Assembly: GCA_902574225.1 (NCBI GenBank)
Contig: CACGMO010000001.1
Location: 1-64,000 of the forward strand
DNA: 64,000 nucleotides
Reading direction: 5' to 3'
From: an uncultured Alphaproteobacteria bacterium
GTDB lineage: Bacteria > Pseudomonadota > Alphaproteobacteria > Rhodobacterales > Rhodobacteraceae
In this document: positions 4,046-20,756 of the stretch, piece after piece
Numbering within the stretch: the stretch's first letter is position 1
How the letters are laid out: each line of letters begins with the position of its first letter
Position numbers and translations under genes: made by a program
The notes under the pieces: generated by a model
What the model was told of the DNA's origin: nothing
Databases searched by the model: none
Seen by the model: only the letters and a program-made list of their open reading frames with translations

Positions 4046-5206
4046 TTGCCTGTAATAAATAGAATATCAGATTACTTTGACGATATGCAAGGATGGAGAC
4101 ATAAAATGCACTCCTATCCAGAACTAGGATTTGAGTGTTTTGAGACAGCAAAGTTTGTAAAATCTAAACTGGAAGAATTTGGCGTAGATGAAATTCATTC
4201 TGGAATAGCACAAACAGGGATTGTTGCAATAATTAATGGTAAATCTAACGGCAAAACAATTGGCCTTAGAGCAGATATGGATGCATTGCCATTAACAGAA
4301 ATGACTAATAAAAAATATAAATCCAAAAGAACTGGAATAATGCACGCTTGTGGACATGACGGACACACCACCATGCTTTTAGGAGCTGCTAAATACTTAT
4401 GCGAGACGAGGAGTTTTGCGGGTAATGTTGCCCTTATTTTCCAACCTGCAGAGGAAGGAGGAGGAGGAGCAAAAGTCATGTGTGACGAAGGCATAATGGA
4501 GAAGTTTCAGATCGATGAGGTTTATGGGATCCATAACGATCCTGGGTCTCCTTTAGGTGTTTTTAAGACTTGTATAGGTCCAAACATGGCAGCAGCAGAT
4601 GATTTTACGATTAAAATTTATGGTCAAGGTGGTCATGCAGCGGAGCCTGATGAAACAATTGATCCACTCATTACCGGGGCACAGCTTGTACAAGCTATAC
4701 AAACTATTTCATCCAGAAACTTATCCGCTTTAGAAAAAGTCGTGATTTCTATCACACAGTTTCATGCTGGAACGACCCATAATATTATTCCCAACGATGC
4801 ATTCATCAATGGAACTGTTCGAACTCTTTCTAAAGATGCGCAATTCCTGATTGTAAAAAGGCTAAAAGAATTATGTAAGGGTTACAGCAGAGGTTTTGGA
4901 GGGAAAATAAAGTTGGACTACAATTATGGTTATCCTCCTACAGTAAATCACCAAAGAGAAACAAAATTTGCAGCTGAAGTGGCTAAAGAGATAGTGGGTG
5001 TACAAAACGTTGACATAAACGCTGAACCAATAATGGCGTCTGAGGATTTTTCATATATGATAGAGAAGCGTCCAGGGTGTTATTTCCATGTAGGGCAGGG
5101 CGTTGGAGCAGCTGTTCACAATCCGAAATATGATTTTAATGATGAACTATTACCGATAGGAGCAAGCTTTTTTGTGAAATTGGTTGAGAAGGCAAACCCT
5201 TTTTGA
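4046..5206 (+). CDS. M20D amidohydrolase (hippurate hydrolase / N-acyl amino acid hydrolase type)
   Basis: 386 residues. Metal-binding motifs of the M20D family are clear: LRADMDALP (about 74-82), HACGHDGH (about 98-105) and QPAEEGGGGA with the catalytic Glu pair. The lid/dimerisation domain follows (GQGGHAAEPDETIDP) and a last metal ligand sits near HVGQG in the C-terminal part. The enzyme is a cytosolic dinuclear-metal hydrolase that removes acyl groups from amino acids; the exact substrate (hippurate, IAA-amino acid, N-acetyl amino acid) is not determinable. Start is TTG at 4046, preceded by AAAGG at 4036-4040. Confidence 0.92.
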   Translation: MPVINRISDYFDDMQGWRHKMHSYPELGFECFETAKFVKSKLEEFGVDEIHSGIAQTGIVAIINGKSNGKTIGLRADMDALPLTEMTNKKYKSKRTGIMHACGHDGHTTMLLGAAKYLCETRSFAGNVALIFQPAEEGGGGAKVMCDEGIMEKFQIDEVYGIHNDPGSPLGVFKTCIGPNMAAADDFTIKIYGQGGHAAEPDETIDPLITGAQLVQAIQTISSRNLSALEKVVISITQFHAGTTHNIIPNDAFINGTVRTLSKDAQFLIVKRLKELCKGYSRGFGGKIKLDYNYGYPPTVNHQRETKFAAEVAKEIVGVQNVDINAEPIMASEDFSYMIEKRPGCYFHVGQGVGAAVHNPKYDFNDELLPIGASFFVKLVEKANPF

Positions 5207-5231
5207 ACAGTTTGCACTAGACGTCGGAGCT

Positions 5232-5777
5232 CTAGAAAGAGGATCCAGGACTTTTTAAAAATTCAATTTCCGAGGCTGTCGATGTTCTTCCTAAGATAGC
5301 GTTTCTATGTGGAAACCTACCAAATCTGGCAATTATATTTTTGTGTTTTAACGCATATTTGTAGACTTTAGCAGAAGTGTGCGCCCGAAATAATGGCATA
5401 GACATCTCTTGAATTTTTAAATTTTCACTATGCATTAATGGTATTAAAATAAAGTGTGCTTTTTTTCTATTTTGTTGGCTGATATCAAAGGTATTTAAAC
5501 AATTTAAACAGGTGTTCAGTGCGAGAGTGTCGCCTGAAAAGGACCTAGGTGTTCCTCTGAAGACATTTCTAGTAAATTGGTCAGTTAATATGATAAGTGC
5601 TAGCGAGCTATCTAAAGATTTTGTCCAATAATTATAATATCCAAGCACCGCTTCTTCTATATGATCACCAAAATTGTTTTTAATTTGGTTGTCAAAAGCC
5701 TTATCTTTTTTAAACCAATCTTTTGAATTACAGTCTTCGAACCAAAAATTTAAAATTCTGTTTATTTCTTTTTTCAT
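5232..5777 (-). CDS. DUF924 family protein
   Basis: 181 residues from ATG at 5777 (MKKEINRILNFWFED). An open extension of 18 codons to 5831 exists but is unlike the family and is not preferred. The family signature is visible: LNFWFED...WF at the N-terminus, LALIILTDQFTRNVFRGTPRSF in the middle, FILIPLMHSE, and the C-terminal ARFGRFPHRNAILGR-S/T-TASEIEFL. DUF924 proteins are all-helical, TPR-like and cytosolic, of unknown biochemical role. Last gene of the cytochrome b561-DUF952-DUF924 set on this strand. Confidence 0.85.
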   Translation of the reverse strand: MKKEINRILNFWFEDCNSKDWFKKDKAFDNQIKNNFGDHIEEAVLGYYNYWTKSLDSSLALIILTDQFTRNVFRGTPRSFSGDTLALNTCLNCLNTFDISQQNRKKAHFILIPLMHSENLKIQEMSMPLFRAHTSAKVYKYALKHKNIIARFGRFPHRNAILGRTSTASEIEFLKSPGSSF

Positions 5778-5841
5778 ATTTTTATGGGAAAAATAAAAGT
5801 AATTTCCCTTGGTAATTTTTACTCTTCTCAATTTAAGGATG

Positions 5842-6186
5842 CTAATTATTTAACACCTGCTTAGGAATAATATGCTTTCCTTCATCGTCCATGAAAATTC
5901 TGTATACTTGGGAAACCATATTTAATGGCAGTGGACTGTATAAGTGCGGGAACATCTGATTATTTCTACTTATCTCCCAAACCAGTTCTATATCATCTGT
6001 GTTTACTTCCAGCAAATACAAAGGGCTTTTCGACCTGAAATGTTTTTTTAAGGTTTCTTCCAATTGTTCTGAAGTAGAAAAGTGAATAAAGCCATCGCTT
6101 CGATCGGTTTTTGATCCTAGAAAAAAATCTTCGTTTTTTACACGCCCCCAGTCATCCTCTTCACATACTTTAAAAACCTTACCCAT
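5842..6186 (-). CDS. DUF952 family protein
   Basis: 114 residues starting MGKVFKVCEEDDWG at ATG 6186, 7 bp after the cytochrome b561 stop. The longer frame to 6240 would overlap that gene and adds an atypical leader. DUF952 features are present: K-hydrophobic-start, SDGFIHFSTSEQLEETL, YLLEVNTDDIELVWE and FPHLYSPLPLNMV. The family is related in fold to RNA 2'-phosphotransferase/ADP-ribosyltransferase-like proteins (established family knowledge, not shown here). Function is unknown. Likely co-transcribed with its neighbours. Confidence 0.85.
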   Translation of the reverse strand: MGKVFKVCEEDDWGRVKNEDFFLGSKTDRSDGFIHFSTSEQLEETLKKHFRSKSPLYLLEVNTDDIELVWEISRNNQMFPHLYSPLPLNMVSQVYRIFMDDEGKHIIPKQVLNN

Positions 6187-12943: not shown

Positions 12944-14512
12944 TTGCAAACAAAACATATTTCTGATTGGTTTTTTATATTGAATAGAATAAAAAGAGGT
13001 TCGGGTGGAAGAGCTGCTAGACGTGAAGCTAGAACCACTCAACAAATAGAGTTTTCCAAATATATTGAGAGAAAAATTCCGAATTTCGATATACTCAGTG
13101 AAGAGGCTTTGGAAGTAATTGAAAATAGTGCTGAAGAAGTTCTAGCAGAAATTGGGGTTAAATTCCCTGATAACGCGGCTGCATTAAAATTATGGAAAGA
13201 AGCTGGAGCCGATATAAAAGGAGATTTGGTGAAAATCCCTAAAGGTCTAGCGCGCAAGCTTTGTTCTACCGCACCGGCTACTTTCACTCAGCATGCAAGA
13301 TCCAAGATAAAGAATGTTGAAATAGGAGGAAAGAATTTGGTGTGTGCGCCTGTGTATGGCCCACCCTTTATTAGAGATCTTGAGGGTGGTAGGCGCTATG
13401 CTGAAATAGCTGATTTTGAGAAGCTCGTAAAATTAGCGTATATGTCAAAATGGGTTCATCACTCGGGAGGAACTCTTTGTGAGCCAACAGATATTCCAGT
13501 AAATAAAAGACATTTAGACATGCTTTTTGCGCATATGACACTTTCAGACAAGCCATATATGGGTTCCGTGACTGCGCCTGAAAGGGCGGAAGACTCCGTT
13601 GAAATGAGTGAGATTATTTTTGGTAAAAAATTTGTTAGCGAAAACACCGTCATGACATCATTGATAAATCTTAATTCTCCACTGGTATTAGATGCAACAA
13701 TGATGGGTGCCCTGGAAGTATACGCTAAAGCGAACCAAGCATGTATTATCTCCCCTTTTATAGTTGGAGGTGCGATGGCACCTGTGACAGTGGCAGGGAC
13801 ATTATCACAAGTGTTGGCGGAAGTCTTAGCAGGAGTGGCTTATAGTCAATTAGTAAGAGAGGGTACTCCTGTAATTTTTGGCACTTTCGTTACATCTATC
13901 GACATGAATTCGGGTGCGCCCACATTTGGGACACCGGAGTCATCAAAAGTCTTGTATGGAGCAGGACAATTGGCAAGACGGTTAAAAATTCCCTACAGGT
14001 CAGGAGGAGGACTTTGTGGCTCAAAAATTACAGACGCTCAGGCAGCATATGAAACATCTAATAGCCTTCACGCCGGGTTAATGGGTGGCGTTAACTTTAT
14101 GTTGCATTCATGTGGTTGGTTAGAAGGTGGATTAGTTGCAAGTGTAGAAAAATTTATAATGGATGCTGACCAACTAGGGATATTAAACTCTTTGTCAAAA
14201 GGTATTGACTTTGAAGAAAGAGACTTAGCGTTTGAGGCAATTAAAGATGTTGGCGCAGGAGGCCACTTTTTAGGATGTGATCATACGCAAAAAAATTTCA
14301 AATCAGCTTTTTGGCGTTCAGATATTATGAATTACAAGCCATTCGAAACATGGCAAGAAGAAGGTGAAAAAGATTTAACGTTTGAAGCTAACAAAAAAGC
14401 TCAACAGCTTTTGAAAAATTATGAGGCCCCTGAACTTGAGTTATCGAAAATGGAAGAGCTTAAAGAATATGTTCTAAAAAAGAAAAGCTCTATGCCAGAT
14501 GCTTTTGTTTAG
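12944..14512 (+). CDS. Trimethylamine methyltransferase (MttB) family protein, non-pyrrolysine
   Basis: 522 residues. The N-terminal GGRAARREAR followed by IPNFDILSEEALEVIENSAEEVLAEIG is the standard opening of alphaproteobacterial MttB-family proteins. Glycine-rich barrel segments (GGAMAPVTVAGTLSQVLAEVLAG, RSGGGLCGSKITDAQAAYET) follow. The frame is uninterrupted with no internal TAG, so it belongs to the pyrrolysine-lacking branch, whose characterised members demethylate quaternary amines such as glycine betaine using a corrinoid protein. No corrinoid protein or reactivase gene is in the window. The start is uncertain: TTG at 12944 is given, but TTG at 12980 (MNRIKRGSGGRAARR) fits the family well. 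It ends directly against tpiA, convergent. Confidence 0.85.
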   Translation: MQTKHISDWFFILNRIKRGSGGRAARREARTTQQIEFSKYIERKIPNFDILSEEALEVIENSAEEVLAEIGVKFPDNAAALKLWKEAGADIKGDLVKIPKGLARKLCSTAPATFTQHARSKIKNVEIGGKNLVCAPVYGPPFIRDLEGGRRYAEIADFEKLVKLAYMSKWVHHSGGTLCEPTDIPVNKRHLDMLFAHMTLSDKPYMGSVTAPERAEDSVEMSEIIFGKKFVSENTVMTSLINLNSPLVLDATMMGALEVYAKANQACIISPFIVGGAMAPVTVAGTLSQVLAEVLAGVAYSQLVREGTPVIFGTFVTSIDMNSGAPTFGTPESSKVLYGAGQLARRLKIPYRSGGGLCGSKITDAQAAYETSNSLHAGLMGGVNFMLHSCGWLEGGLVASVEKFIMDADQLGILNSLSKGIDFEERDLAFEAIKDVGAGGHFLGCDHTQKNFKSAFWRSDIMNYKPFETWQEEGEKDLTFEANKKAQQLLKNYEAPELELSKMEELKEYVLKKKSSMPDAFV

Positions 14513-19699: not shown

Positions 19700-19775
<76 letters not shown>

Positions 19776-19798: not shown

Positions 19799-19875
19799 GC
19801 GGTTGTAGCTCAGCTGGTTAGAGTGCCGGCCTGTCACGCCGGAGGTCGCGGGTTCGAGCCCCGTCAACCGCGCCA
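19799..19875 (+). tRNA. tRNA-Asp (anticodon GTC)
   Basis: 77 nt cloverleaf. Acceptor GCGGTTG pairs with CAACCGC; anticodon stem CCGGC/GCCGG with loop CTGTCAC (anticodon GTC); T arm GCGGGTTCGAGCCCCGT; discriminator G and encoded CCA. Lies 23 bp after tRNA-Val, probably one transcript, and its 3' end is only 14 bp before the start of the panB-like gene. Confidence 0.97.
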
Positions 19876-19889
19876 CTTAGGTACGAGAA

Positions 19890-20756
19890 TTGGTTAAGAA
19901 AAAAGATAAGCTCACTATTCAAGATCTTAAGAAAAAGAAGGCTGAAAACGAACGCTTGGCTATGGTTGCAGTTGGAGAATTTTTATCTGCTCAATGGGCA
20001 GAAGCGGCTGGTATTGATATAATTGGCGTTGGTGATAGCTTGGGGATGACACTCTATGGTCATGAGAATACTCTTTCAGTTACGGTTGATCAGATGATAC
20101 AACACTGCAGGGCTGTCAGAAAAGGTGCACCGAATACATTTTGTATTTTAGCTATGCCCTATGGCTCTTATTCTACAAAAAGTATGGCAATTAAAAATGC
20201 TTCAAAGATGATGAAAGAGAGTGGTGCTGATGCGATCAAATTACAGTGCGGGAAAGATAGAGTTGATATTATCAGCGCAGTATCTTCGGCAGGCATTCCT
20301 GTTATGAGTCATGTTGGATTATTGCCTCATTTAGTTCACGTATATGGTGGTTTCAAGATGCAGGGCAAAAATGCTGAAGATGCGGTTAAAATTATCGAAG
20401 ATGCAATTGCTATAGAGAATGCTGGTGCGGTAGGAATAGAGATTGAAGCGGTCCCGGCAGAGGTAGCCCATGAAGTTGATAGAGCTGTATCTATATTTAC
20501 GTTTTCAATTGGTGGTGGTGCCGCGGGAAACTGCCAATTATTAAATGGCTATGACCTGATAGGAGGATTTAATACATTCAAGCCAAAATTTGCTAAGCGT
20601 TTTGGAAATGTTGCCGATGTGGCTGAAAACGCCTTCAGAGAGTTTGTTAGTTCAGTAAAAGCTAATACTTTTCCAGATACAGAACATAGCTACAGTATGT
20701 CTCAAAGTGAAATTATTAAATTAAAACAATATCTTAAAAGCAAAAGAAAAAGCTAG
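19890..20756 (+). CDS. PanB-family (ketopantoate hydroxymethyltransferase-like) protein with altered metal site
   Basis: 288 residues aligning end to end with PanB: GVGDSLGMTLYGHENTLSVT, HVGLLPH, YGGFKMQGK, AVPAEVA, and GDTEHSY-like C-terminus (PDTEHSYSM). Of the three Mg ligands known in E. coli PanB (Asp45, Asp84, Glu114), the first is kept (Asp49), but the others read Ala88 (ILAMPYGSY) and Gln119 (IKLQCG). The IGIGAG motif is changed to IGGGAAGNC. It may therefore be a paralogue with a different reaction in the PEP mutase/isocitrate lyase superfamily rather than the pantothenate enzyme; no panC is nearby. TTG start at 19890, 14 bp after tRNA-Asp. Confidence 0.8.
   Translation: MVKKKDKLTIQDLKKKKAENERLAMVAVGEFLSAQWAEAAGIDIIGVGDSLGMTLYGHENTLSVTVDQMIQHCRAVRKGAPNTFCILAMPYGSYSTKSMAIKNASKMMKESGADAIKLQCGKDRVDIISAVSSAGIPVMSHVGLLPHLVHVYGGFKMQGKNAEDAVKIIEDAIAIENAGAVGIEIEAVPAEVAHEVDRAVSIFTFSIGGGAAGNCQLLNGYDLIGGFNTFKPKFAKRFGNVADVAENAFREFVSSVKANTFPDTEHSYSMSQSEIIKLKQYLKSKRKS

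Follow-up and report, generated by a model that had tools for sequence, protein, structure and literature searches.

A PanB-like variant of Alphaproteobacteria with two replaced metal-site residues and a possible role outside pantothenate synthesis

The closest described relative of the protein considered here is ketopantoate hydroxymethyltransferase, PanB. In the Escherichia coli enzyme we take Asp45, Asp84 and Glu114 to be the metal-site triad, residues reportedly described as metal ligands by von Delft et al. in 2003, and Glu181 to be the catalytic base, with Lys112 and His136 as its catalytic partners. According to two papers, PanB enolises 2-oxo acids with the help of a metal (PMC7770189) and is capable of aldolase activity that does not depend on folate; in the latter work Val214, Ile202 and Ile212 of E. 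coli PanB were mutated in aldolase engineering to alter the substrate scope (PMC7610986). A further paper gives SPO0102, the panB of Ruegeria pomeroyi, as a vitamin B5 gene (PMC10041152).

We analysed a stretch of 64,000 nucleotides (the window) from an uncultured member of the Rhodobacteraceae (GenBank assembly GCA_902574225.1, contig CACGMO010000001.1). One of its open reading frames (Table 1) encodes a PanB homologue that scores 289.3 bits with the PF02548 profile and 264.8 bits with the TIGR00222 panB equivalog profile (cut-off 207.55), also exceeds the cut-off of NF001452, and recovers E. coli PanB (1m3u) in phmmer at E 1.6e-50. The preliminary description of this DNA had claimed that the equivalents of Asp84 and Glu114 are replaced by Ala88 and Gln119, those of Asp45 and His136 being retained as Asp49 and His141. 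Both claims are borne out by the phmmer alignment to 1m3u, which further pairs Ser50 with Ser46, Lys117 with Lys112 and Glu186 with Glu181, and the four other solved PanBs from that search give the same pairing; of the presumed triad, only the Asp45 equivalent is present. An alteration of the IGIGAG loop, also pointed out earlier, is real in the window (SIGGGAAGNC) but not diagnostic of the variant group, as IGIGAG..DGQ is retained in subclade II variants (see below) and an IGAG loop is found in one genus mate (L025). Five differences absent from the preliminary description emerge from our comparison: Val179 to Glu184, Gln142 to His147, Gly/Ala135 to Ser140, Val214 to Asn/Leu219 and Phe87 to Tyr91.

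Table 1. Coordinates of the variant gene, its key codons and other features mentioned in the text
Feature	Sequence	Position	Strand	Remark
Variant PanB-like gene	window	19890..20756	+	TTG start, 288 aa ORF
Glu30 codon	window	19977..19979	+	acid ending strand 1; E/D in 32/32 thinned variants; canonical T/S/H/D
Asp49 codon	window	20034..20036	+	E. coli Asp45, kept; presumed metal ligand
Ala88 codon GCT	window	20151..20153	+	E. coli Asp84, replaced; A/S/C clade-wide
Lys117 codon	window	20238..20240	+	E. coli Lys112, kept
Gln119 codon CAG	window	20244..20246	+	E. coli Glu114, replaced; Gln in 32/32 thinned variants
His141 codon	window	20310..20312	+	E. coli His136, kept
Glu184 codon GAG	window	20439..20441	+	E. 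coli Val179; new clade-fixed acid, strand 6, two residues before Glu186
Glu186 codon	window	20445..20447	+	E. coli Glu181, kept; presumed catalytic base
Asn219 codon	window	20544..20546	+	E. coli Val214, substrate-pocket position
tRNA-Val	window	19700-19775		directly upstream of the variant gene
tRNA-Asp	window	19799-19875		directly upstream of the variant gene
MttB-family gene	window	12944-14512		736 bits to PF06253; TIGR02369 equivalog 266, cut-off 525
Tight Rieske orthologue	window genome, C9	1308-2369		
Another Rieske-type oxygenase	L118	4684-5835		118 bits to GbcA, cut-off 670
DUF6166 (PF19663)	L080	6855-7172		no function assigned
Divergent PF02548 homologue	L053	953-1801		
Divergent PF02548 homologue	L054	4415-5236		
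Divergent PF02548 homologue	L055	4073-5131		
Divergent PF02548 homologue	L056	4117-5010		
Very long-branched PF02548 homologue	L052 (G030)	5183-6091		site N88, H117, E119; full-length to PanB profile; 147.8 bits to NF001452, cut-off 272

We searched for homologues among 61 genomes (the window genome and its relatives) and in samples of 394 genomes from the family, 385 from the class and 398 from the phylum. The class search returned 16 places in 14 genomes at 474.7-520.4 bits, all variant by residue, the next match below them being a canonical PanB (G537) at 303.7 bits; in the phylum sample E 1e-90 was passed only by the window genome and one other (G440), both of them Alphaproteobacteria. Residues were counted over 32 thinned variant and 37 canonical rows, the same rows as in a 69-row tree from which the window copy (L001), the divergent homologues L052-L056 and nine near-identical genus rows, these last with the same key residues, had been left out. 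Position 88 is Ala, Ser or Cys in all 32 variants and Asp in all 37 canonical rows, and position 119 is Gln in every variant and Glu in every canonical row; thus the fixation within a clade that the preliminary description had put forward as a check was found, with Ser and Cys joining Ala at the former position. Ser against Gly/Ala at position 140, His against Gln at 147 and Glu against Val at 184 separate the two sets of rows with no overlap, and position 219, Val in 37/37 canonical rows, is Asn in 17/17 rows of one variant group (subclade I) and Leu in 12/12 of another (subclade II) and in three of three intermediate rows. Tyr91 is also found in one of the 37 canonical rows. Lys117, Glu186 and the Asp45-Ser46 pair are kept in all 32 variants, and His141 in 31 (Gln in L067).

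The variants represent nine family codes and one plasmid. On the 69-row tree a 100/100 branch separates them from all other rows, the bootstrap being not fully settled (correlation 0.975). In a second tree the divergent PF02548 group was added, L052 was omitted for its very long branch and the other rows were thinned to 56. Here the canonical rows remain one side of a 100/100 branch, and the two variant subclades do not form one side, grouping jointly in 8% of bootstrap trees, so that a single origin of the variant is not secure.

The gene neighbourhoods of 28 variant loci (13 of subclade I, 12 of subclade II and three intermediate) differ by subclade. In subclade I a Rieske oxygenase gene lies directly downstream in 7/13 loci, with an ATGA stop/start overlap between the two genes in six of these seven; its product is DdmC-like, with Rieske and VanA_C domains, and its best solved match is dicamba O-demethylase. 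The same subclade carries a divergent MarR regulator (6/13), a DmdA/GcvT-like folate-type protein (5/13) and PhyH (2/13); the DmdA-like protein that was scanned (L074) reaches 363.6 bits to DmdA, under the cut-off of 410. The partners of subclade II are GntR (11/12), a fatty-acid-hydroxylase/sterol-desaturase-like protein (10/12), DUF6166 (9/12), PhyH (8/12) and the TRAP component DctP (8/12), and the intermediate loci (L078, L134, L136) have partial partner sets or none. Because the contig is short in some cases (L123, L135), truncation is among the causes of missing neighbours. The hydroxylase-like neighbour passes the Pfam FA_hydroxylase model in L133 and fails it in L079, and PhyH matches MysH (E 1.2e-10) only slightly more strongly than it does ectoine hydroxylase (E 2.2e-9), for which reason we claim no substrate for it. 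The DctP of L133 finds as its best match a 'ketoacid-binding protein' (7ug8, E 2.1e-36) and as its second 2hzk, labelled a sorbitol/mannitol binding protein; this locus, of 30% GC, comes from a 1.3 Mb genome that also holds a canonical PanB copy and whose profile appears SAR11-like.

None of these partners adjoins the gene in the window, which stands alone after two tRNAs, and a tight orthologue of the DmdA-like protein was not found in the window genome (best match 283 bits; the best in the genus, in G001, reaches 358 bits). The tRNA-Val/tRNA-Asp pair precedes the variant gene in all eight genus loci scanned. The MttB-family gene of the window is separated from the variant gene by unrelated genes, and homologues occur near variant PanB in L122 and L124; it makes a weak candidate partner, with a homologue start within 7.1 kb in 4/28 loci.

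A tight orthologue of the Rieske protein is present in nine genomes of the family sample and the subclade I variant in eight, both occurring together in eight, the window genome among them (Fisher p 6.7e-16, with genomes treated as independent; adjacency of the two genes makes the association trivial in part). More is learned from two genomes of the window genus (G000 and G008), in which variant and Rieske genes are on separate contigs. In the window genome the Rieske orthologue is on another contig than the variant, its product being 77% identical to the Rieske protein whose gene overlaps the variant in G220. Within the 22 genomes of the genus, which are incomplete, there is no clear association (both genes in eight, variant only in seven, Rieske only in two, neither in five). 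Among 17 further variant genomes (13 from the class, four from the family) only G720 has the tight Rieske, at 699.9 bits, and it was not found in the subclade I genomes G476 (68% complete), G477, G596 and G766, which rules it out as a universal partner; the next best match among 54 genomes, in the canonical PanB genome G787, is at 226 bits. Another Rieske-type oxygenase gene (L118) lies about 2.3 kb from the tight Rieske orthologue of the window genome.

Taken together, we consider it reasonably likely that the variant is a neofunctionalised alphaproteobacterial family of PanB paralogues, a (retro-)aldolase or C1 transferase that has changed its metal use and takes an oxygenase-linked organic acid as substrate, and that its new role is probably catabolic. 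A changed reaction or metal use, as the preliminary description had suggested, is the likeliest reading of the clade-fixed residues, purifying selection, pocket changes and non-pantothenate context. The family would have split from ketopantoate hydroxymethyltransferase and taken on another role, in which the enzyme may still make or stabilise an enolate and form or break the C-C bond of a one-carbon (hydroxymethyl) unit, the putative C1 partner being formaldehyde or folate. Its substrate would be an acid different from that of PanB, probably a 2-oxo or 2-hydroxy acid, most plausibly made by an oxygenase: the Rieske protein in subclade I, and PhyH and/or the fatty-acid-hydroxylase-like protein in subclade II. 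The PanB-like enzyme would then remove the CH2OH through retro-aldol transfer, a direction suggested by gene context, and a metal, if any, might be held by Asp45 and the substrate, possibly with Glu184 or Glu30. PanB's enolisation and folate-independent aldolase activity mean that the family has the needed reactivity, and a step that releases C1 from an oxygenase-made organic acid would suit both the DmdA-like neighbour of folate type and the keto acid-type transporter. A more specific version, which we put forward tentatively and regard as improbable, is that a methyl branch on a small organic acid is hydroxylated by the oxygenase, after which the PanB-like enzyme, its site rebuilt or free of metal, moves the CH2OH to folate as a one-carbon unit. 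If true, Alphaproteobacteria, including the low-GC, 1.3 Mb SAR11-like genome, would possess an oxidative route of C-demethylation, and a new enzyme family would lie hidden inside 'PanB'.

An AlphaFold2 model of the window protein (pLDDT 82.9, pTM 0.84; low-confidence at residues 51-60 and 227-238) retrieved PanBs in all of the top 28 rows of Foldseek and the top six of VIA, with Z 36.1 to 3vav and an alignment of 250 residues with 1m3u at 1.8 A. Predicted strand 6 spans residues 182-186, which would point Glu184 and Glu186 in one direction; Glu184 is predicted to face the barrel interior, where it might re-position a metal or alter the charge. The preliminary description had regarded other acidic residues in the metal site as evidence against its proposal, and Glu184 is indeed a clade-fixed new acid with a predicted inward orientation; since it is also found in the divergent PF02548 group, which has no Asp45/Lys112 motif, it is not necessarily a metal ligand. 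Glu30 is a weak candidate for a replacement ligand because 10/37 canonical rows carry Asp there. The loss of two metal-site carboxylates and the fixation of a new acid would also suit a metal-independent lyase, tautomerase or decarboxylase, in which folate/C1 chemistry has been lost and Glu184/Glu186 together with Lys117/His141 perform acid-base chemistry on an oxygenase product, and the divergent group, which retains still fewer of the metal-site residues, is an example of this fold dispensing with the site altogether. However, we hold such a reaction to be unlikely: the invariance of Asp45-Ser46 suggests that something, perhaps a metal, is still bound, and the folate-type DmdA-like neighbours fit C1 chemistry.

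The pantothenate pathway provides a second line of evidence. A panC search gave no match in the window genome (88% complete) or in any of the 22 genomes of its genus (58-91% complete), the same search being positive in 21 of 61 genomes overall; a classical prototroph is therefore unlikely, even as the variant PanB is present in 15 of the 22, all confirmed by residue. The window genome has one PF02548 match only, with no canonical panB elsewhere at its 88% completeness. Thus, of the earlier caveat that this might be the only panB of a pantothenate prototroph, the first half holds and the second is improbable. A PF02548 search of 25 genomes, one of which (G537) proved canonical, left 24 variant genomes. 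Half of these have a second full-length copy, canonical at positions 88, 119, 147, 184 and 219 in 12/12 cases (panC being present alongside canonical PanB in G025), and the other 12 have no full-length canonical copy, the short fragments in G702 possibly representing one. Two single-contig, 98% complete genomes of subclade II (G593 and G788) hold the variant copy only. Such variant-only genomes are the most serious outstanding objection to a role other than that of PanB in subclade II: the variant could still be a ketopantoate hydroxymethyltransferase whose metal site tolerates the replacements, with Mg held by Asp45 and the substrate, or by Glu184, and which supplies ketopantoate for pantothenate or another use. 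Its passing of both profile cut-offs, the retention of Asp45, Ser46, Lys112, His136 and Glu181 and its standing as sole PF02548 gene in the window genome and several subclade II genomes agree with this. Nevertheless, we judge retained PanB activity to be distinctly unlikely in view of the lack of a panC match in all 22 genus genomes, the canonical copy alongside the variant in 12/24 genomes, the pocket Val214 changed in 32/32 variants and conserved neighbours that are oxygenases, transporters and regulators.

Compared pairwise with six genus members, the window gene gives dN/dS values of 0.062-0.082 (synonymous sites are saturated for a seventh, L083), and the gene is under purifying selection. 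With the clade-wide residue fixation this rules out simple degradation, in agreement with the earlier view that conserved flanks mark a gene not simply degraded. A non-enzymatic or regulatory pseudo-enzyme, or a relic decaying after the window genus lost pantothenate synthesis, would account for the undetected panC and the two missing metal-site residues but is very unlikely given this selection, the catalytic Glu kept in 32/32 variants and the same changes in larger genomes that retain canonical PanB. No relative was found in one scan of viral contigs for a phage origin.

We found no publication on the variant family in the open-licence PMC literature, which is not proof of its absence; the titles and abstract starts of the PanB paralogue literature offered no paper on it, and the accessible part of a paper on PanB side activity (PMC4814558) held nothing on it. 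Nor did this literature give a lead to homarine, mycosporine-like amino acids or a published panB/PhyH/TRAP/sterol-desaturase cluster. As both variants scanned by profile (from the window and Methylobacterium nodulans) lie above the PanB equivalog cut-off, and the plasmid copy of M. nodulans is annotated panB, pipelines will label the family PanB. Such mislabelling can make vitamin B5 auxotrophs resemble partial prototrophs, as in the marine genus of the window with its undetected panC. If its function is confirmed, the variant would offer a natural experiment in rebuilding a class II aldolase-like site that has lost metal carboxylates, as well as an entry point to an oxygenase-linked pathway in Alphaproteobacteria.

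In relation to known systems, the variant shares with PanB (TIGR00222, PF02548; 1m3u, 3vav, 1o68) the fold, 34-36% identity and Asp45, Ser46, Lys112, His136 and Glu181, and differs from it in Asp84 to Ala/Ser/Cys, Glu114 to Gln, Val179 to Glu, Gln142 to His and Val214 to Asn/Leu, in its frequent linkage to oxygenase genes and in a genus where panC was not found. The PEP mutase/isocitrate lyase superfamily (2-methylisocitrate lyase, phosphonopyruvate hydrolase, oxaloacetate decarboxylase), whose members follow the PanBs among the VIA matches, has the same TIM-barrel at Z 16-18 but only 12-19% identity, and the sequence profiles below E 0.001 are PanB entries only. A divergent PF02548 group of the same class (L053-L056, L154-L156) is represented by three examined copies in G035 and probably by several in G244 and G358. 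Like the variant, it carries His141, Glu184 and Glu186; unlike the variant, it is without the GDS loop motif and Lys117 (E. coli Lys112), its four scanned members fall far below the TIGR00222 cut-off, and its seven rows form a 100/100 group of their own.
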